IMG/VR virus record: IMGVR_UViG_3300025326_000170
Location: 1 to 28,470 of that record
Length of the DNA stretch: 28,470 bases
Origin: a virus
Strand: one strand, 5' to 3'
Positions 353-27,126 of the stretch are shown in pieces. The notes under the pieces were generated by a model. The model did not search any database and was not told the origin of the DNA. It saw nothing but the letters and a program-made list of their open reading frames with translations. The translations under genes were made by a program, and so were the position numbers. Numbering within the stretch: position 1 is the stretch's first letter; each line of letters begins with the position of its first letter.

Positions 353-3300
353 CTATTGTCTCCTGTCTTCACCCTCTCTTCGAGGGGGAAGAGCTTCACG
401 GCCGAGCGCGCGCCGCGCAATCTGCACCATACGCTCGTACGCGCGGTCGAGCGCCTGCCGTTTCTCGTCCGGCGTCATCTGGCGGTTCTCGTAGATCGGC
501 GTGACCTGCTCCCGTCGAATCTTCGCAAGCAGGGTCGCCGCGGCGTTCAACCGTGACAGTTCGACCTCGAACTGCGGATGTTGACGCGCCAAGGCTTCAG
601 CTCCCGGCTGATCCTTCTCGCGCCGACGTTTGGCGATGGCCCGTTTCACGCCCGCCAGTTCATCCCGGCGCCGGTAGAGGATCTGGAACGAGGCCGCCGT
701 CGTGGCCACGCTGACATCCCCCCGGTAGAACGTGCCGACTCCGGGCACGCTGGACCACCCTTGTGCGGGGCGAGGCACCCCGCCAGGGGTCGCGGCGTCA
801 ACAGCGCGACCGACATACTCCAAGACTCCCCGCCCGTACCCTCCGCTGTAGCCGTAAACGAGGTGATCGAAGTGCGCGGGCGCCAAGCCGATGCGCGGCC
901 CGACATACTTGCCGACTGTAGAAGTCCACCGGCTGTACTGGTCTTCGAGCGGCAGATCCACGTCGTACGGGCTGACGATGGTCCGATTCCGGAAGGTGTC
1001 GTAATTGGCGACGATTTCGAGCACCGGCATCACGGCCGTGGGCATGATGCCGAGCAGCATCTGCCATGCGTCGGTCTTGGACTGCCAGGGCAGACGCTCA
1101 ATCGCGGCCTGGTCGTTCTCAACTGCCCAATCGAGATAGGCTTCGAGCGTGTTCCCGATGTCGCCCAGGTCGAACGGCCGCGGCACCCAGAGATACCGGC
1201 GTCGCCCGAAGGCTTCTCGGCTCCCGGGAATCGGGATGTGCCAGTAGCTCGCCTTTGCCCAGCCAGGGATCTCTTCGTATTCTGGATCGTCCCGGTTCAT
1301 CGACCAGAGCAGGAGTCCCGGCAGCACGCCGTACGCGAACGCCCTAGCGGCGTAGCGCCAGCCGTCCTCGCGGAGCGCCTTCCCGGCTCGTGTCCAGCCG
1401 CCCACGCGAGCGCCAAGGAAAGCGACATACTTGTTCGCTTCGCGTACGGCCGACCCCATCTTCGTAAAGTCCTGTGTGATCTCCCGTGCGGTGAAGGCGC
1501 CTCGCGCCAAGGCTTCCGTGCGATCCAGTCCCTGACGCTCGGCTTCAGCGACAGTCTTGATGAAGGCTTGGAGCCGTGGAGCCGCGTCCGAGAGACTCGA
1601 CAGTGCCTCCATCGCTTCGAGCGGATGAAAGATCGTCGCGTCCAGCATCTGGCGAATCGGGCCGTGGCCCAAACGTCGGATCTGCTTCTTGGCGACATCC
1701 ACCGACGGCGAGACGAGGGCGGCATGCGCGGCCTTCGACGCTTTGAAGAGTTGCCAGCTCTCAGTATTGCGGACGATCAAGCCAATGCTCTTCAACGTGT
1801 CGAGTGCTGCGTGCGTGTAATGGGCCTTTGTTTTGGCGTCAATGTGGTCACGAATCAGGTTGCGCTCGAAAAACCCGAGCGTTGCCACCGCAAGTCGACG
1901 CAAGGATGACGCGCCCGCCTTCATGAGCCGCAGCAGGAACTGTGACGCGACGGGTTGCTTCGTGACGATGGTCTCCCAAAGTGCCTTGTCGTGAATCTGC
2001 CACCACTCACGCTTCCCGTCCCGCAGAATCGTCACGACCCCCGTGTCGCCCATCGCAATCGTTGCGGGCGTGAAGACGGTCAAGAGGGCGTCAACATCTT
2101 CGAGCCCGCCTTCGGGGAGTTCGATGTTCGCGCCTGCCTGTTCGAGCGCGTCCAACACCTCCCGCTGAACTTGGGCGAGGTTGAACCGTGTCGCCAGTTG
2201 CTTCGCGTCGATGTGCTCGGCGATGCGCGCCCCGCCCGGGGTCTTGGCCGCGAGGTCGACGAGTTCGCGGAGTGACTGATTGTGCTCGACCAGCCGCACG
2301 AGCGCGTGGGTGTTCCGAATCGCCGTGATGTAGGGGTCTTGAATCCGGTTGCCACTGCCCTGGAACCGCTTGAAGAACGCCGCCACGTTCTGCCGCTTGG
2401 TGCCCGGTGTTCCAGGCGTCCCGCCTTCCGCGACCGTGGCCACGCGATGGAATGGCACGTAGAAGACATTCCGCTGCCGAAACTTCGTGGCGAGTTCACC
2501 CGACAAAAAGCCACGTTCGACGGCCCAGGTCAGCATGCCGTCGAAGAACGCATCGCTCGCAGCGGCAGCTTTCTCAAACGACTGCCGTTGTGCAGCAGGC
2601 ACATCCTGCGTGGCCGCAACCTGGCGATCTGTTAAGCCGGTCTCCAAGTTCCGCGCGTGGAGTTCTTGCGCCCGCCGGCCCACCATGAAGGTGACGAACC
2701 GCTTGTAGCTGCGCATCACCGGATTGAGCGCCTTGAAGAGTCCGGGCGCCATGATCGTCCCGTCCGGTCGGCGGATTGCGTCACTCAAGTACGTCTCGGC
2801 CTGCTCCCCGGTCCCGGCGAGCAACCGCTGAAGGATGTAGGTCGATTCGCTCCAGCGTGGTGCCGGTGCCCCGTCGCGCAGTTGTTGCTCCGCGCGCAGG
2901 TAGGGCAGTTTGTCGTCGTTCAGGGAGTCATTCAGCTTGTCCCAGAGCGTCCGAGGATCTTCCTCCGATCCCGCGAAGGTCTCCACCACGCGCCGGACAA
3001 GTCCCGAATCGCCGAAGTCGATGTGCAACTCAGCCTGGGTCAACGGGTCGGCGGACAGATACCGCTGTGTTTCCAGTTGCAGTCCTTCGAGGCCCTCGCG
3101 CAGGTCCGGATGATCCTCCAGGAACCGCTGGAACTCGACGAGATAGCGCGGCGCTTTCGCGGCGAGCGTCTCGGGAGCGGTCATCCACGCGACGAAGAAC
3201 TCCGCGGCGCCTTCTTGACGCCGTTTCTTCGGCGAATAGGAGGGCTTCGAGGTGGGCGCTCCCAGAGCCTTCAACTCCTGGGCGATAGGGTTCAGCGCGT

Positions 3301-6300
3301 TCAGCTTCGACCCCTGCATGATGGCCAGGTCCAGATGGTGGCCGTACTCGTGGAAGACCACACGGAGGTCGTTCGACACCCGCACGCGCACGATTTCCGG
3401 CTTCCCACCCCACTTGTCCTGCCAGCGATAGATCCCAAGCGCCCGTTCGCGGATCTTGCCCGTGGCCACTGGACGCTGGAAGAGCGCGGCCAGTCTGGCG
3501 ACGAGATCGTGCGGGCCTTTCACGGGGCCTTCGCCCGTGGCGGCTGGGGTGGGGCGCGCGGGAAAGTCGTGAAGCAGGCGCCCGCGTGTGGACGGCAGCG
3601 CCATCGCTTCGGTGCCGCCTTCGGGGCCTTCGGGTTCCTCCGCTTCGGGCGGGGCCTCAGCGACTGGCGTCGGTTCGGTGACCTCTGGACGCGGCCCGGC
3701 CAGCGCAGCGGGTGACGTGCGGGCCTTCGCTTCTTGCACGACCAGATCGCGCCACGCCGACGCGCCGACCGATCGAATCCGCCGGATTAGCTCGCTGATC
3801 GCGTAGGGGTTCCGTTCGATCGTGAAGATACCATCGCCGGGGATTTCCACTCGAAGCGTGCCAGCCTTGCGTTGACGGCCAAGCTCCGCCGCCACCGCGA
3901 GGAGCGCCCGCTCACGCATCTCGCTTGGGGTGCCGTTCTTGACGGTCGTCTTGGGCAATTCGGGCTCGGTGAAGAACGCGAGGCTTCCGGTATGCGTCGC
4001 GCCGGTCAGGCTCAAGTCAGCGACAGCTTGTCCGTCAGCAAGGATCCGTCCTTCTCGCCCGCCATAGGCTTTCCTGGCGTCGAAGGTCAAGGTCGTGAAG
4101 CCGACCGCTGTCGCGGCCGTCGCCCGTTCACTCTCAAGGGCCTGGAGCACGTGCTGTTGCACAGCGACTGCGGACTTCGCCCCTTTGGTCTCGACGAGAC
4201 GCCGAACTTCCGTACGCACCTCAGCCGCGGCCTCTGCTGGCGTGTCTGCCGCGCGGGCCGTGCGCGTGCGGGTGATGCCAGCGGATGGCGGTGCTTCGGG
4301 GATGGATTCAGCCGCAGCAGCAACCGCACTAGGGACAGGCATCGGCTCAACTTCCGCCGGCAACCCGACCCGCATATCCTCCAGCGTCACCTCGCCGCCC
4401 TCAGCGATCCGCGCCTTCACGCGCTCGGCCGCTTCGCGCGTCTCGACGAAGATTGAGACCGATCGGCCGGCAGGATTGCGTCCCGTGACGGTGAAGCCGG
4501 GCTTGTTCCTATACTCGCCCGCTCGAATCGCCAATCGCGCGGCTGGCGGGGCCTTCGTGCTCTTGAGCACCTGCGGCTCGGTCGCGTGCGTCCGGCGCCG
4601 ACCTGTCTCGACCTCTTCGACCGTCACCGACCACCGGCCGGGCTCGGGATCCTGGTAGCTGATGACGCGCGCCTGCCCACCTTCGACGAGCGCGCCGGGC
4701 GTGAAGATGATCCGGCGTTCGAGGGGCGTGGCCGACCGGCGCCAGCGCGTAGGCGTGGCCGAAGACGCTTCTTTCACGGACAGCAACGTGGGTGGCCGAG
4801 GTGGGGTTACGGATTCGGGGGTCGCCTGCGCGGGCGGCTGACTCGCCGCTTCCCTCGCCGGCCGTCGCAACTCCTCCGGCTTCACCCGGATGAACGTGCC
4901 CTCCGCCGTCTTGACACTCACCGCCTCCTTGCCGACTCCGAATAGCGTCCCGCGGACGAGGGTGCCGTCGGGCTTCGTCAGTTCGACGGCGTTGCCGATG
5001 GCGATTGGGGCGTCGGGCGCTGTCGGCGCTTCCTTCGGGGCCTTCGGCGCCTGTTTCGCGAGAAATGCCTTGTGCAGCGGCGAGTCTTCGAGTACGTAGG
5101 TGTATCCGAGGTCCCTGGGTGTGCGCCCTTTCACGCCAGACAACTCAGAGTCGTCGAGGATCGCTTGCTGAATCTCGGAAGCGAGCGGCCGCGGCTCGCC
5201 CGCGCGCCCCTTCAATTCCACCGCCTCACCGACTGTGATCGGCGCAGCCTCCGCAGGAGCCGGCTCGGCTCCCGGCGCCGGGAGTCCGGCCTCGACCCGC
5301 TTGGCGGCCGCTTCCCGGGCCGCGTCCACCCGCTGCCGTTCGGCAAAGTCCTGGCGGCGCTCGAGCGTCCCCAAGGGCTCCCCTTTGGCCAGCTTCGCCT
5401 GGATCTGGGCCACCCAATCGGTCGGCTCGAGGGGCGGCGGCGGGGTCACACTGACCGGTTGCTGGCGAACATCGGTCGTCTGGGCGGCGGCCTGCCGGCG
5501 GGCCGGTTCGAGGATCTCGGCTTCTCGGGTCGGCCCAGCCATCCCACCCCCAGGCGCCTCCACGGCTGGCCCAGGCGCCACCGGCGGGGCGATCAGGGCC
5601 TGGGGCGGCCCAAGGGGGGCTTCGGCCGTGGGTTCTGCTTCGCGTGGGGCCGCCTGGAGGGCCTGAGCAGGGCCACGCACGGCAATTTGGGCACCGCCCC
5701 CCATGACCGCCCCAGCCAAGGCCCCCAAGACGGCACTCTGGCTGACGCCTCGGGACCACGGCTTACCGGTCGCGATGTTCTGCTGGATCTGCTCCAGGAT
5801 GGACTGCGGGAACTCTTCGACCACGCCTTCTTGCACCGCACTGGTGATGACCGCTTTGACGAGGTTGGCGCGGGCCGTCGGATTCTTGACCCCGGCGGCC
5901 AACAGCGTATCGACATCCAGCGCCCCGAGGCGTTGGGCCAGTCGCCCCCCCAAGAGGGCCAACCCGCCAGTCGCCGCTCCGGACGTGACGGCGAGGCCCG
6001 CTTGCCCAGGCGTCAACAGGCCAGAGGGCGTCTCCTGCCGGATTTGTTCGGCGGCGGCTCCTCCGGACACGATGCCTTCGCCTGCGGCCGCCGCCACGAC
6101 CGCCGGCACACCGCGTGTGACAAGTTGCCGGGCGATCCCAGCCCCGCCGAGCATCAGCGGCGCCGATTCGATGACGGCCTGGGCAATGACTGACGGGTTC
6201 TTGAGAGCGGCGACGGCCGTGTCGACGAAGCCTTCCGCCTCTGCCACCGTGCGATTCGCCTTCTGCTGCTGCTCGCTAAAGTACCTGTCGAGGATCGCCT

Positions 6301-6778
6301 TGGCTTCCTTCGGCCTGAACCCGAACCGCTCAGCCAGCTTGCCGGCTCGCCCGCCGGTCGGAATGTCCAACAGGCCAACAGCCGCTTCCGGCACGCCGAT
6401 CGCGGCCCTGGTGGCCATCAGCCCGACGTCGGCCAAGGTGCCCAGAAAGGTCCGCCCCGGCGCGACAGGTTCAGCCGCCGCAAGGACTGGCGCGGCGGCC
6501 GGCTCATGCGACGGCACCGGCTTCAGCGCGGAGAAGTCGAAGGCGGCTGGTTCGTGACTCGGGACCGGCCGCATCGCCGGCACGACAGGCGAGGCCGGCT
6601 TGAGACCCGTGAAGTCGAACCCGCGCACCGCCGGGCTGACCGGCAACGTCGTTGGGAGTGGGCGTGAGGGCAGCGGCGCGAGAGGTTTCAGGCCTGAGAA
6701 GTCAAACCCGGCCGTCGGCGGCGCCTGAGGCGGCGTCGCAGGCTTGAGGCCGGTGAAGTTCCACGCGGTCTGGGTCAT
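353..6778 (-). CDS. Giant (2141 aa) polyvalent/ejection protein with HEXXH metallopeptidase motif
   Basis: Last gene of the late block, starting 4 nt after its neighbour's stop. The first 90 residues are Pro-rich and hold four copies of an aromatic-(D/N)-F-(S/T)-(G/A)-L-K-P motif (residues 6-13, 25-32, 54-61, 80-87). Ala/Gly-rich hydrophobic helices follow (about 200-285 and 347-368), then a long Pro/Ala/Glu-rich linker region. A zinc-protease motif, HEYGHH, lies at 1143-1148, with an EGAAEFF segment at 1189-1195 that could supply the third ligand. The C-terminal third (about 1240-2141) is helical, rich in Arg and Trp, and resembles the domains of phage large polyvalent proteins (LPD38-like, from memory). 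Known role of such proteins: packed in the virion and delivered into the cell with DNA. Ejection and peptidase activity here are inference. No lytic transglycosylase motif was recognised. Confidence 0.6.
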   Translation of the reverse strand: MTQTAWNFTGLKPATPPQAPPTAGFDFSGLKPLAPLPSRPLPTTLPVSPAVRGFDFTGLKPASPVVPAMRPVPSHEPAAFDFSALKPVPSHEPAAAPVLAAAEPVAPGRTFLGTLADVGLMATRAAIGVPEAAVGLLDIPTGGRAGKLAERFGFRPKEAKAILDRYFSEQQQKANRTVAEAEGFVDTAVAALKNPSVIAQAVIESAPLMLGGAGIARQLVTRGVPAVVAAAAGEGIVSGGAAAEQIRQETPSGLLTPGQAGLAVTSGAATGGLALLGGRLAQRLGALDVDTLLAAGVKNPTARANLVKAVITSAVQEGVVEEFPQSILEQIQQNIATGKPWSRGVSQSAVLGALAGAVMGGGAQIAVRGPAQALQAAPREAEPTAEAPLGPPQALIAPPVAPGPAVEAPGGGMAGPTREAEILEPARRQAAAQTTDVRQQPVSVTPPPPLEPTDWVAQIQAKLAKGEPLGTLERRQDFAERQRVDAAREAAAKRVEAGLPAPGAEPAPAEAAPITVGEAVELKGRAGEPRPLASEIQQAILDDSELSGVKGRTPRDLGYTYVLEDSPLHKAFLAKQAPKAPKEAPTAPDAPIAIGNAVELTKPDGTLVRGTLFGVGKEAVSVKTAEGTFIRVKPEELRRPAREAASQPPAQATPESVTPPRPPTLLSVKEASSATPTRWRRSATPLERRIIFTPGALVEGGQARVISYQDPEPGRWSVTVEEVETGRRRTHATEPQVLKSTKAPPAARLAIRAGEYRNKPGFTVTGRNPAGRSVSIFVETREAAERVKARIAEGGEVTLEDMRVGLPAEVEPMPVPSAVAAAAESIPEAPPSAGITRTRTARAADTPAEAAAEVRTEVRRLVETKGAKSAVAVQQHVLQALESERATAATAVGFTTLTFDARKAYGGREGRILADGQAVADLSLTGATHTGSLAFFTEPELPKTTVKNGTPSEMRERALLAVAAELGRQRKAGTLRVEIPGDGIFTIERNPYAISELIRRIRSVGASAWRDLVVQEAKARTSPAALAGPRPEVTEPTPVAEAPPEAEEPEGPEGGTEAMALPSTRGRLLHDFPARPTPAATGEGPVKGPHDLVARLAALFQRPVATGKIRERALGIYRWQDKWGGKPEIVRVRVSNDLRVVFHEYGHHLDLAIMQGSKLNALNPIAQELKALGAPTSKPSYSPKKRRQEGAAEFFVAWMTAPETLAAKAPRYLVEFQRFLEDHPDLREGLEGLQLETQRYLSADPLTQAELHIDFGDSGLVRRVVETFAGSEEDPRTLWDKLNDSLNDDKLPYLRAEQQLRDGAPAPRWSESTYILQRLLAGTGEQAETYLSDAIRRPDGTIMAPGLFKALNPVMRSYKRFVTFMVGRRAQELHARNLETGLTDRQVAATQDVPAAQRQSFEKAAAASDAFFDGMLTWAVERGFLSGELATKFRQRNVFYVPFHRVATVAEGGTPGTPGTKRQNVAAFFKRFQGSGNRIQDPYITAIRNTHALVRLVEHNQSLRELVDLAAKTPGGARIAEHIDAKQLATRFNLAQVQREVLDALEQAGANIELPEGGLEDVDALLTVFTPATIAMGDTGVVTILRDGKREWWQIHDKALWETIVTKQPVASQFLLRLMKAGASSLRRLAVATLGFFERNLIRDHIDAKTKAHYTHAALDTLKSIGLIVRNTESWQLFKASKAAHAALVSPSVDVAKKQIRRLGHGPIRQMLDATIFHPLEAMEALSSLSDAAPRLQAFIKTVAEAERQGLDRTEALARGAFTAREITQDFTKMGSAVREANKYVAFLGARVGGWTRAGKALREDGWRYAARAFAYGVLPGLLLWSMNRDDPEYEEIPGWAKASYWHIPIPGSREAFGRRRYLWVPRPFDLGDIGNTLEAYLDWAVENDQAAIERLPWQSKTDAWQMLLGIMPTAVMPVLEIVANYDTFRNRTIVSPYDVDLPLEDQYSRWTSTVGKYVGPRIGLAPAHFDHLVYGYSGGYGRGVLEYVGRAVDAATPGGVPRPAQGWSSVPGVGTFYRGDVSVATTAASFQILYRRRDELAGVKRAIAKRRREKDQPGAEALARQHPQFEVELSRLNAAATLLAKIRREQVTPIYENRQMTPDEKRQALDRAYERMVQIARRALGREALPPRREGEDRRQ
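5269..5284. repeat. 16-bp palindrome, copy inside the giant gene
   Basis: Identical to the copy at 18732-18747. Here it lies in coding sequence and is read as part of a Leu-Pro-Ala-Pro-Gly-Ala segment in the low-complexity linker region of the giant protein. Confidence 0.8.
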
Positions 6779-22514: not shown

Positions 22515-22807
22515 CACGCCCTCCGCACCAGCCGATACCGCGGCCGGCTCCGACTCCCGACCGCTCGCACATCTCCCGACCGGACGAGGCTCACGAGCGC
22601 CGTGTCCACCTGCCGCTCGCTCAGCGCCGTCCTCCGCGCCACCTCGCCGGCCGACAGGTCCGGCTCCCGCCGCAGCAGCTCGGCCACGACCCGCCGTGTG
22701 GCCGTCAGCCGCTCGGACACCTCCACGAAGGCAGGCCGCTGCGCCACCTCCACCGCCTGGCGCGCCAACGTCCCGCTCCACACAACCTCGAGCGTCAGCC
22801 CATCCAT
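22514..22807 (-). CDS. Small winged-helix DNA-binding protein
   Basis: A 97-aa protein starting at ATG 22807, overlapping the terminase stop by 13 nt; the ribosome site is weak (GGGCGG). The second half is a MarR/MATE-like winged helix: RRVVAELLRREPDLSAGEVA (helix 1-2), RRTALSERQVDTALVSLVRS (turn and recognition helix), then a basic wing, GDVRAVGSRSRPRYRLVRR. The first half (about residues 1-38) is a short strand-helix region not recognised. Such proteins bind DNA and may regulate late transcription or act in packaging. It is translated directly behind TerL, so coupling to terminase is likely. Confidence 0.6.
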   Translation of the reverse strand: MDGLTLEVVWSGTLARQAVEVAQRPAFVEVSERLTATRRVVAELLRREPDLSAGEVARRTALSERQVDTALVSLVRSGDVRAVGSRSRPRYRLVRRA

Positions 22808-25344
22808 GTCGGCCGCCCGTCCCCAGACCCGCGCCGCCCCTCGAACATCTGCCGCCGTCGCCGCTGCTCGGCCCGGCGCCACGTCTTTGTCACCGGGGCG
22901 GCAAACGTATAGGCCAGCGCATCGCCATCGTCCGGCGACGCCACGCCGCGCTTCTGCATCGATTCCTTGCTTTCGATGAGCAGCCGATCCTGCTTGGTCA
23001 GATGATGCCCAGGCCCGGTCAAGTCCGTCGCCAGCCGCACGTCATCCGCCGGCACCGCTCCATGCCGCAGCCAGTCTTTCACCCGACTCCACATATACGC
23101 CCGCATGTTCGCGCACGTGTGATCGGGCGGATGCGTCGCCCCACCTCGCACCTCGGCCACCTGCTTGAACCCCATCGCCTGGAGCCGTTCCACATACGGC
23201 GCCCCAAACGCCGAGTCCACGAACATCATATCGACGCGCTTCAGCGGATCCCGCTCGCTCAACACCCCCGCCAAAATCGACAGGAACGCCGACCGGTCGT
23301 CCCGCGTCGCCTGGCCCGGCACCCGAATCGGTGGCAGCGTGCGCGCATCCGACCCGCGCCGGAACCGCACCACGTTCCACGCTGCCCCGCCATCACTCAC
23401 GTCCACCCCCGCAATCAGCGGCTCGTCCGGCAACACCACCGGGAGCGCCCGCTGCTGCGCCCCCCACACGAGATCCTGCCCGATGAACTGCAACTCGCTC
23501 GCCCTCGGCGGCAACCCCCGCACGCGCACCCGCACGAAATCCGAGTCCTCGCCATACTCCGCAATCCACTCCGCGATCAGCGCCTTGTTCGGCAGCCGAC
23601 AGTCACGCGCGTCAATGATCCGCGCCTGCCACTTGTCCCGACCCCGGCCGAAGCACGCCTCGTGAAACGCCCCCGTGTTTCGCGTCGGGTTGCCCGTCAC
23701 GATGATGAACGGCTCGCCGTCCGTCAGCCCGCCTTCCGCCACCTGCCACACCACCTCGGGGATCGAGCTCGCCTCGTCGAACAGGTACAGCGAACTGGAA
23801 TCCTTCGCGTGCTGCCCGGCGAACGCCTCGCTATTCTCCTCCGCGCACGTCTGTGGCGTCGTGAACCACGTCGCCCGATGCCCCTTCCGATACCAGATCG
23901 CCGAGTTCGCCTCAAACCAGTTCCTGACGAGCGAGAGTCCCAGCCACTCGCGGATGCCCGCCCAGAGCTTCCCCTGCAACTGCTCGTTGGTGTTCGACGT
24001 GACCGTCCCGCGGCAGCCTTGCCGCGTCGCCATGAGCCAAATCGCGATCCAGGCGGCCAAGACGGTGTTGTGCGTGACGATGAAGTCATTGGTGAGGTAA
24101 AGGCCGTCTGGTGCCGCGACCGTGATGCACCGACACTCCTCAGACCCGTCACGTTCGATCGTGTCCATCCATTTCGCCCGATACCGAGGCTCGAGATGAC
24201 GAGGCACCCGGTCGGCTTTACGCCTGATGTAGAAACATCGGAAGTCCGTCGGCATCGCAAGTGTCGCACGCCAACTCGGCCGACCGGCCAGTCGTTCGCC
24301 CCGTGCGCCTGGGTAGTGCGGATGCTTGATGGAGGGCTGAACCATCGCTTTCCCCCCCAGAGAACGCGCCAGCCAGACCACATCGTCGACAAGCCCACGA
24401 CTCGTCGAGCTAAAAATCACGCTGCCCTGTCGATCGCACTCGCCGTCGGTGTCGAGCAGCCCACGGAGCACCTCGGCACGCACCGCCGAGGGGGCCTCGC
24501 GGTAAGCCGTCGGTACAGCCTTCTGATAACTGTACGCGCTCAAGATGCCCAGGCCCCGGAGGCGAGCCTGTAGCCCAGGCACGCGCCAGCCCAGCCCATG
24601 CACCGGCCACGCGTCATCGCCGCACGCGCGAATGTGATCGATGATTTCTGAGTCCATGGTCGTAATGACCGCTGACTCTCGTCCGCCATCACCCAGCCAC
24701 ACCCCCAGCAGATACGGCGCCACCGGGAGAGACCGCGGCAGATACTCGACCGGCTTGGTGATCGGCACTTCCCATTGTCGCGCTCGCGCCTTGCCATTGG
24801 GTCGCTGCACCCCAGCCCGGCGTACCTCGTCGGTCGTGCGCAGCACCCAGGCGCCCGATTGCCGGCGTCGCTGCTGACGGCCTCGGACGAGCCACACATG
24901 CTCCCCGCACACGCGCGTCTCCGTCCGGTCGTCGAAGCGAACCCGATACACGGGCAGCACGCCGCGGTCATAGACCCCTACGATCGTCGTCGGCTGGCCG
25001 TCCGCGCCGAACACCTCATCCCCGACTGACAGATCACCCCATTGCCGGCGACCAGAGGGCGTGTCCAGCCACAGCGAAACCGGCTGCGCTTTCCCCGTCC
25101 CGTGGCCGCTCGAAATCGCGACCCGCACCGGCATCACCGACTGCCGGCCATCAAAGCCTCGCGCGTGAACCTGCCGCCCGATGTCCTCCAAGACCTCGGC
25201 CTGCCACTGATCCGGCCCCGCCTCGCCCTTGATCGGCCACGGATACATCGCCAGGGTGAACGCGAGCGGATCGTCGTAGTACCTCGCCACCTCGGCGTGG
25301 AGCTCGCGGTCGAAGTCTCGGTCCGTGGGCGTGGGAACGGTCAT
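22795..25344 (-). CDS. Terminase large subunit (TerL) interrupted by an intein
   Basis: An 849-aa precursor; removing the 341-aa intein (residues 86-426) leaves a 508-aa TerL, close to P22 gp2. TerL is the ATP motor and nuclease that packages DNA. Seen: N-terminal PDQWQAEVLEDIG; Walker A SSGHGTGK split from its Thr by the intein; adenine-side segment SNTNEQLQGKLWAGIREWLG; Walker B LYLFDEASSI; coupling motif IIVTGNPTR; nuclease acidic motifs IAGVDVSDGG, MMFVDSAFG and DDGDALAYTF. The ATG overlaps the methyltransferase stop as ATGA. The protein cannot work until the intein splices, because the Walker A lysine and threonine are separated. Family call is very strong. Confidence 0.95.
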   Translation of the reverse strand: MTVPTPTDRDFDRELHAEVARYYDDPLAFTLAMYPWPIKGEAGPDQWQAEVLEDIGRQVHARGFDGRQSVMPVRVAISSGHGTGKAQPVSLWLDTPSGRRQWGDLSVGDEVFGADGQPTTIVGVYDRGVLPVYRVRFDDRTETRVCGEHVWLVRGRQQRRRQSGAWVLRTTDEVRRAGVQRPNGKARARQWEVPITKPVEYLPRSLPVAPYLLGVWLGDGGRESAVITTMDSEIIDHIRACGDDAWPVHGLGWRVPGLQARLRGLGILSAYSYQKAVPTAYREAPSAVRAEVLRGLLDTDGECDRQGSVIFSSTSRGLVDDVVWLARSLGGKAMVQPSIKHPHYPGARGERLAGRPSWRATLAMPTDFRCFYIRRKADRVPRHLEPRYRAKWMDTIERDGSEECRCITVAAPDGLYLTNDFIVTHNTVLAAWIAIWLMATRQGCRGTVTSNTNEQLQGKLWAGIREWLGLSLVRNWFEANSAIWYRKGHRATWFTTPQTCAEENSEAFAGQHAKDSSSLYLFDEASSIPEVVWQVAEGGLTDGEPFIIVTGNPTRNTGAFHEACFGRGRDKWQARIIDARDCRLPNKALIAEWIAEYGEDSDFVRVRVRGLPPRASELQFIGQDLVWGAQQRALPVVLPDEPLIAGVDVSDGGAAWNVVRFRRGSDARTLPPIRVPGQATRDDRSAFLSILAGVLSERDPLKRVDMMFVDSAFGAPYVERLQAMGFKQVAEVRGGATHPPDHTCANMRAYMWSRVKDWLRHGAVPADDVRLATDLTGPGHHLTKQDRLLIESKESMQKRGVASPDDGDALAYTFAAPVTKTWRRAEQRRRRQMFEGRRGSGDGRPTWMG
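24067..25089 (-). mobile_element. Class 3-type intein with LAGLIDADG homing endonuclease in TerL
   Basis: A 341-aa protein intron between Lys85 and Thr427 of the TerL precursor. The first residue is Ala (AQPVSLWLDTPSGRRQWGDL) instead of Cys or Ser, so normal class 1 splicing is not possible. Block B holds CGEHVW, with Trp151 two residues after the block B His149; block F has Cys406 in CRCITVAAPDG; block G is FIVTHN with Thr424 before His-Asn and Thr as +1. These three residues (Trp, Cys, Thr) are the class 3 signature described for phage-related inteins. Two LAGLIDADG-type motifs, LLGVWLGDG and LRGLLDTDG, each keep their Asp, so the endonuclease looks intact and could drive homing into intein-free TerL genes. 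Confidence 0.9.
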
Positions 25345-26465
25345 GGTGTCCGCCGCATAAACAGCACCGTCTCGAAATCAATCGGCGGCGAGCCCTTGGA
25401 TTCAGCCAGCCGGCGGAAGAACGATTTCCTGGCCCGCTTCGTCACCCGCTCACCGTCCCACAGGTGCGGCACGCGCTCCTCGACCACGAGCATCGCATGG
25501 ACTTCTTTGACCAGCTCGAAGCCGCAGGCCTCGCAGAGCTTCCGCCAGTCACCGGGAAAGTCCACGATCTGCTTGTCGCGGACGAAGGCTTTTACGACCC
25601 AAACGGCGAGGCCGCCGGGCTTGAGGATGGCGTGGGACTCGCGGACGATCTTCGCTGACTCAGTCCAGAAGGTCGGGTACTCTGTCTCGATTGCTGATTC
25701 AGGCGCATCCGCGAACGCGCCATTCGGCAGCCGCGCCAGTTGGCCCGCGCTCTTGCCGTAGCCAGCAGTTTCCTTAGTCGGCGAACCGCCTCCGCGCTGC
25801 CCGCGCCTGTTCGTGTTCCATGCGCCTGTCTGGTCGGTGTGATGGCCGCCGCTGATGTACGGCGGACTCGACACCACGGCCGCCACGTCGCCCGCCTTCA
25901 TTGCACCGAGCTGGCCGGAGGAAGTGCCGTAACCTCCGGCACGCGCCTGAGAGTTCGGCCCACCGAAGCGGCTTCCGATGCGCGTCCGAGCCATATCAAT
26001 GCCATTGCGCGCGTTCACGGTGTCAGCCTCGTACGGCGGGCTGCTCACGACCGCCTCCGCCAGCGCCGGCCCGATGCACGCCCGCAGCCGCCGGCTGTCG
26101 CCCTCCACCATCACCGGCTGCGGCCGCCCCATCGCCGCCCACGTCGCCGCGTGCGCCTTGTTGTTCGCCCGCGCCAGCGCCACAAACCGCGGCTCCAGCT
26201 CGCACCCGATGAAAAGGCAGCCTCGCGACGCCGCCTCGATTCCGGTCGTGCCGATTCCAGCAAACGGATCCACGACAAGATCGCCCCGCTTGAGCGCGTC
26301 CATAACGAACAGCTGGTCGAAGATCCGCACCAGCAGGCCGCGGCTCATTTTTGCTGGGTGACTGAAACTCTCAGCCGTGATCAGCCCGGCCCAGCCGTCG
26401 TCGTAGCAGCCGGCCCAGGTTTCAGCCTGACCCGCACAGCGAAAGTCCCGATCCCCGCTCCGCAC
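25341..26465 (-). CDS. DNA methyltransferase with repeated SPPY motifs
   Basis: A 374-aa amino-methyltransferase that would add methyl groups to adenine N6 or cytosine N4 in DNA. The GTG at 26465 is chosen because GGGGAGG lies just upstream; a much longer open frame above it runs over other genes. Seen: SFSHPAKMSRGLL (residues 34-45, motif X-like), VVDPFAGIGTTGIEAASRG (64-82, AdoMet motif I), CELEPRF (88-94, motif II), then SSPPY at 141-145 and again at 199-203 (motif IV). After each SPPY comes a GYG-x-S-x-GQL segment, so the catalytic region looks tandemly repeated, with a third decayed unit near 236-250. The order X, I, IV is gamma-like. It overlaps TerL as ATGA. Likely role is protecting phage DNA from host restriction; specificity unknown. 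Confidence 0.85.
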   Translation of the reverse strand: MRSGDRDFRCAGQAETWAGCYDDGWAGLITAESFSHPAKMSRGLLVRIFDQLFVMDALKRGDLVVDPFAGIGTTGIEAASRGCLFIGCELEPRFVALARANNKAHAATWAAMGRPQPVMVEGDSRRLRACIGPALAEAVVSSPPYEADTVNARNGIDMARTRIGSRFGGPNSQARAGGYGTSSGQLGAMKAGDVAAVVSSPPYISGGHHTDQTGAWNTNRRGQRGGGSPTKETAGYGKSAGQLARLPNGAFADAPESAIETEYPTFWTESAKIVRESHAILKPGGLAVWVVKAFVRDKQIVDFPGDWRKLCEACGFELVKEVHAMLVVEERVPHLWDGERVTKRARKSFFRRLAESKGSPPIDFETVLFMRRTP

Positions 26466-26498
26466 CTTCGCCTCCCCGTAAGTCAGTGATGATAGCGA

Positions 26499-26531
26499 GG
26501 CGAAAGGCCCGCCAAGACCCCCGCTTTCGCC
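26499..26531. promoter_or_regulatory. Inverted repeat upstream of the methyltransferase
   Basis: GGCGAAAG at 26499-26506 and CTTTCGCC at 26524-26531 form an 8-bp perfect stem with a 17-nt loop in the 94-nt gap before the methyltransferase GTG. The rest of the gap has CGGAT three times (26537-26553). It may be a binding site or an mRNA hairpin; no T run follows, so termination is unlikely. Confidence 0.4.
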
Positions 26532-26559
26532 CCGCACGGATCGGATAACGGATCTTGCG

Positions 26560-26790
26560 TTAACCTCTGTCTTCGAGCGCGCGGAGCTGCTGCCCCACCT
26601 CCGCCAGGACCGCCTCCCGGTCCACCTCGCCCCAGTCCGCCCGGCCCGGCATCGCGGCCAGATACGCTCGCAGTATCTGACGTCGCCGGGCCGTGTCCAT
26701 CCTGGGCCGGCGCTCGTGGCAGTGCCAGCCCCCGAGTCCGCGCACGTAGTCGCACTCGTCGGCCGTCGTCCATTGGAAGTAGCGGTCCAT
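26560..26790 (-). CDS. Hypothetical 76-aa phage protein
   Basis: A small soluble protein with ATG at 26790 and GGGAGGGG about 8 nt upstream, 3 nt after the stop of the ribbon-helix-helix gene. It begins MDRYFQWTTADECDYVRGLG and continues with a helical half, RRRQILRAYLAAMPGRADWG, then VDREAVLAEVGQQLRALED. Proteins of this type (Trp/Tyr-rich start with E-C-x-Y-V-R, then R-x-x-x-L-x-x-Y-L and R-x-D-W-G) appear beside terminase genes in phages, from memory, with no known function. Existence is well supported by start signal and spacing. Confidence 0.6.
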   Translation of the reverse strand: MDRYFQWTTADECDYVRGLGGWHCHERRPRMDTARRRQILRAYLAAMPGRADWGEVDREAVLAEVGQQLRALEDRG

Positions 26791-26793
26791 TGT

Positions 26794-27126
26794 TCACCCC
26801 TCCCGAAACCGCCTGCACACGCAGCCGGCCAGACACCCCCGCGCCCAGTGCTGGCTCTCCTGATGCCCGCACCGCGCGCACACCGGCGCCGCCGCCGACA
26901 CCGGCTCAGGCACACGCTCGGGCACAGGTCGCGAGTCTGGTGCGCGCCGCGTCGGTGGAACTCGCCGCACCGCCGGGACAGGTCGAACCGCTTCCCCTAG
27001 CACCGCCCGCGCGCCACGCTCGAGGAGCGCCGTCACCGTCACACCCTCGCTCTCAGCCTGCGCCCGCAACCGCTCGAGCAACCCCGCGTCCAGCCGCACC
27101 TGATACGGCACCTTGGCCATGTCCAT
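26794..27126 (-). CDS. Ribbon-helix-helix protein with C-terminal zinc motif
   Basis: A 110-aa protein. The N-terminal part, YQVRLDAGLLERLRAQAESE then TVTALLERGARAVL, is a ribbon-helix-helix fold of the Arc/CopG kind, which binds DNA as dimers at paired sites. A Pro/Arg-rich linker follows (about residues 45-78). The C-terminus has CARCGHQESQHWARGCLAGC and a further C-x-x-F, a zinc-binding pattern C-x-x-C-G-H ... H ... C-x-x-x-C-x-C frequent in small actinobacterial proteins. Start may be ATG 27126 or ATG 27120; the second fits a leaderless message from the -10 box at 27128-27133. Paired GTATGGAC sites flank its own promoter, suggesting self-regulation. Confidence 0.75.
   Translation of the reverse strand: MDMAKVPYQVRLDAGLLERLRAQAESEGVTVTALLERGARAVLGEAVRPVPAVRRVPPTRRAPDSRPVPERVPEPVSAAAPVCARCGHQESQHWARGCLAGCVCRRFREG

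Follow-up and report, generated by a model that had tools for sequence, protein, structure and literature searches.

The large terminase subunit (TerL) is the commonest intein host in mycobacteriophages. There the TerL1-a intein is placed between the Lys and the Thr of the P-loop, several TerL inteins were classed as class 3 by their WCT residues and two TerL inteins cleave intein-free terL (Kelley et al. 2016, PMC5050341). For the intein MchDnaB1, the residues His65, Trp67, Cys124 and Thr143 have been described as the catalytic triad together with the WCT Trp (PMC7664689). We analyzed a stretch of viral DNA of 28,470 nucleotides (IMG/VR record IMGVR_UViG_3300025326_000170, in the following called the window), and we put the probability that it carries a mobile class 3 intein in the P-loop of TerL at about 0.94. 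The host of this intein is a virus of bacteria.

The TerL precursor is encoded by an ORF on the minus strand (22795..25344), whose reading frame is open across the insert. The product of 849 amino acids consists of an N-extein of 85, an intein of 341 and a C-extein of 423 residues. The N-extein (TerL residues 1-85; 25090..25344, minus strand) ends with the Walker A sequence SSGHGTGK, and the C-extein (residues 427-849; 22795..24066, minus strand) begins with the +1 nucleophile Thr427 and contains the remaining part of the ATPase and the nuclease domain. Thus, an in-frame insert of 341 amino acids splits the Walker A loop SSGHGTGK|TVLAAW between K85 and T427, and the spliced TerL is predicted to comprise 508 amino acids. 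The protein matches phrog_2 (terminase large subunit), and the joined exteins match phage TerL proteins over 93% of their length, with identities of 43.7% to the TerL of HU1, the top value, and 35% to that of epsilon15. The window protein combines a P-loop ATPase with a nuclease. The terL gene has a small terminase gene, a P22-like portal gene and an N6/N4 DNA methylase gene as neighbors and is therefore part of a phage packaging cluster. The methylase gene (25341-26915, minus strand) overlaps the terL start codon with its 3' end by the sequence ATGA. Elsewhere in the window, the product of an ORF of 2141 amino acids (353-6778, minus strand) gave a match to the large polyvalent protein domain LPD38 and a weak one to virion RNA polymerase; it is probably an ejected virion protein.

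The DNA originates from a metagenomic virus contig of 28.5 kb that may be incomplete, and on this ground the insert could be regarded as dead for splicing, so that TerL would be non-functional owing to prophage decay or misbinning. We consider this extremely improbable, because all splicing residues are retained, the flanks unite in alignments with phage TerL proteins into a complete TerL with conserved motifs, and the neighboring head and packaging genes are intact. The first-pass annotation had placed the insert between Lys85 and Thr427 of the ATP-binding loop and had predicted a spliced TerL of 508 amino acids; the frame, the flanks and the insert-free relatives agree with this. With a splicing-competent intein at this position, packaging can soundly be expected to depend wholly on splicing.

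The intein itself comprises ORF residues A86 to N426 (intein residues 1-341; 24067..25089, minus strand). Its splicing (Hint) domain is divided into an N-terminal part with H64 and W66 of block B (intein residues 1-110; 24760..25089, minus strand, borders approximate) and a C-terminal part with C321 of block F and T339-H340-N341 of block G (intein residues 301-341; 24067..24189, minus strand). In ORF numbering W66, C321 and T339 correspond to W151, C406 and T424. The first-pass annotation had read these three residues, together with the Ala start, as a class 3 set and had proposed an alignment to check whether they occupy the positions B12, F4 and G5. This alignment was run and bore out the assignment for all three: H64, W66, C321 and T339 align exactly with His65, Trp67, Cys124 and Thr143 of MchDnaB1 (6RIX), so that the Trp is located at B12, the Cys nucleophile at F4 and the Thr at G5. 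C404 (intein C319) was also considered as the block F Cys and was rejected, since C319 aligns with variable residues and C321 with Cys124 of 6RIX.

Further comparisons led to the same group of inteins. Using phmmer, the intein was aligned with the solved class 3 inteins 6RIX, 6RIY and 6BS8, and a profile of 48 sequences matched the same three structures with E values as low as 1e-26. None of the four residues H64, W66, C321 and T339 varies among the relatives, whether 14 or 48 sequences are aligned. We fetched 166 distinct homologous inteins for comparison, and the WCT set was present in 160 of them. Position 1 carries no nucleophile (A1), and Ala is the commonest first residue among the relatives (101 of 166). 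The C-terminus ends with His-Asn (H340-N341) and is followed by Thr427 as a valid +1 nucleophile, as in a member of the Hint family. The SETP3 helicase intein, which is of class 1 and begins with Cys, served as control: it has Leu and Gly at the positions of W and C, and the WCT test is therefore able to fail. Inteins homologous to the window intein occur in 761 phage records, and since in addition W66, C321 and T339 are invariant, the insert is not a product of chance.

An AlphaFold2 model of the intein reached a pLDDT of 96.1 and a pTM of 0.93. The modelled splicing domain is closest to class 3 structures, with 6BS8 as the best match (Z 19.1, rmsd 1.5, 123 residues, 34% identity), and the whole intein model matches PI-SceI (Z 25.4, 313 residues). 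That the intein belongs to class 1 or class 2, has its WCT residues by chance and splices via its first residue or directly via Thr427 is very nearly negligible as a possibility: Ala1 excludes class 1 and would be compatible with class 2, but the WCT residues are located at exactly the three positions, and the closest structures and relatives belong to class 3. Judged from alignment and model, the insert is a class 3 intein, which would splice by the corresponding chemistry.

The LAGLIDADG homing endonuclease domain lies between the two parts of the splicing domain (about intein residues 111-300; 24190..24759, minus strand). Its borders are approximate; the domain was recognized by Pfam LAGLIDADG_3, which scored above the cut-off with the intein alone as query, and by the PI-SceI alignment. 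D134 in LGVWLGDGG and D215 in LRGLLDTDGE (ORF residues 219 and 300) align with the Asp of both PI-SceI motifs, so that each of the two LAGLIDADG motifs ends in its catalytic acidic residue. K190 aligns with a Lys of PI-SceI which we take to be catalytic. The first-pass annotation had stated that both motifs keep their Asp and that the homing endonuclease is intact; D134 and D215 are indeed present, and both the sequence and the predicted fold show a complete domain. The endonuclease thus looks intact and would presumably cleave DNA.

Among the 166 homologous inteins, both LAGLIDADG Asp residues are kept in 156, and the first is replaced by Asn in 8, including the nearest relatives, the TerL intein L217 (IMG/VR contig UViG_3300046707_000048) and the intein L252. 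Because of this exchange in the nearest relatives loss lies close at hand, and the nuclease of the TerL intein is presumed active. In L217 (2978-4000) and L252 the endonuclease is probably dead and the splicing domain well kept. Endonuclease loss recurs in a cycle among inteins, and the window intein might likewise be a splicing class 3 intein whose endonuclease became inactive recently and which is now inherited only vertically. Retained catalytic residues are no proof of an active nuclease, and in the intein that Salmonella phage 66FD carries at this same TerL site, the position of K190 is occupied by Ala. We nevertheless regard such a recent loss as unlikely, although clearly less so than the two alternatives discussed above, because the window intein retains both Asp residues and K190, and its endonuclease domain contains no stops, shows nearly the same degree of conservation as the splicing domain and receives a high-confidence fold prediction. 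The identity to L217 is 56% in the endonuclease region and 57% and 71% in the splicing region; the corresponding values for another close relative (L023) are 52%, and 46% and 54%. This similar degree of conservation fits recent selection on the nuclease.

The mobile class 3 intein is also indicated by the distribution of empty and filled sites. Of the 155 related TerL loci compared, 142 have no insert at this point, and the C-terminal part of the protein follows directly on the GK. An interpretation of the insert as a plain TerL domain variant was rejected for this reason. An intein end is located at the P-loop point in 8 of the 155 loci, and in 3 more, of the 66FD type, an intein was matched by an alignment that does not reach the junction residues. 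Intein-free TerL proteins reach 60% identity to the window TerL. The nearest relative, L217, carries its intein at the same site; the inteins are 59.7% identical, the N-exteins 47.1% and the C-exteins 48.4%. An intein that is closer than its TerL is what would be expected of a mobile element. The GC content at third codon positions amounts to 0.74 in the intein versus 0.86-0.87 in the exteins. In the phages 66FD (L008, 2222-4672) and epsilon15 (L011, 577-2052), which belong to the same genus, TerL is nearly identical around the P-loop, also in the part after the insertion site, and a class 3 intein is present in 66FD and absent from epsilon15. The L217 identities, the empty relatives, the GC contrast and this pair of phages all fit homing.

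From the observed frame, family, residues, fold and empty sites we infer the following course of splicing, DNA cleavage and homing. After translation His64 would activate Cys321 of block F, which would directly attack the Lys85-Ala1 peptide bond and form a branched thioester. The N-extein would then be transferred to Thr427, cyclization of Asn341 would free the intein, and an ester rearrangement would yield intact TerL with the sequence GHGTGK-TVLAAW. The LAGLIDADG endonuclease, as excised or as precursor protein, would cut intein-free terL at the site coding for GK-T/S, and the intein would be copied into the cut gene during its repair. Conditional splicing, caused by oxidation or metal binding at the block F Cys, has been reported for class 3 inteins of mycobacterial DnaB. 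By analogy, such an effect might hold TerL as an inactive precursor, and the intein would then time or gate genome packaging under host stress; we consider this highly doubtful.

The first-pass annotation had presented the combination of a class 3 intein and a nuclease at a catalytic site as something of a surprise, and this part did not hold. An unusual insertion site for a class 3 intein was considered and rejected, since 152 of the 166 relatives are located directly after a GK dipeptide, among those listed mostly in P-loops of helicases, terminases and other ATPases. The family thus inserts most commonly between the Lys and the Ser/Thr of the P-loop, and this site is published for TerL (PMC5050341). 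A viral scan with the intein alone and exact peptide patterns had revealed six relatives only; alignments gave many more. Some of these relatives combine the WCT set with another first residue. A viral intein in a P-loop resembling that of SF2 helicases (L089, match 1780-2859; DMGLGK|CISTSESVYC...) starts with Cys and has the full set including the block F Cys, and several others (L004, L044, L067 and L095) start with Ser; the boundaries of such inteins are derived from alignment only. To judge from their residues, both the class 1 and the class 3 route would in principle be available to the Cys- and Ser-first inteins for the first step of splicing.

Taken together, the TerL intein belongs, as an ordinary member, to a large and well-described group of class 3 P-loop inteins. 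This group gains a well-resolved case, in which empty and filled TerL relatives display a plain homing pattern; the knowledge of inteins and of packaging is not changed by it. The main use of the intein is that of a control, as the residue assignments made from the raw sequence were all correct.

Compared with known systems, the TerL inteins of the Salmonella phages 66FD (a Uetakevirus), 65FD and PAT1 are similar in A1, the WCT residues, the terminal HN and class 3 membership, as read in 66FD. The 66FD intein also shares the LAGLIDADG domain with both Asp residues, and it interrupts the K|S bond in a TerL that belongs, like the window TerL, to the GHGxGK family; it differs in having only 37.6% identity, the Ala mentioned above and Ser instead of Thr at +1. 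The TerL1-a inteins of mycobacteriophages, for example in Minerva gp9, are likewise located between the P-loop Lys and the next Ser/Thr (PMC5050341), and our alignment revealed WCT and both LAGLIDADG Asp residues in the Minerva intein. In contrast to the window intein, to which they are about 32% identical, they belong to a different TerL lineage and have another first residue. The mini-inteins MchDnaB1 and MsmDnaBi1 (PDB 6RIX, 6RIY, 6BS8) share the splicing fold and the catalytic residues, but the solved proteins have no endonuclease domain and originate from mycobacterial DnaB. The closest counterpart, L217, agrees in site, in WCT and in nearly 60% of its intein residues, and differs in its exteins, which are only 47-48% identical, and in the first LAGLIDADG Asp, whose exchange for Asn is the reason why its nuclease is probably dead.
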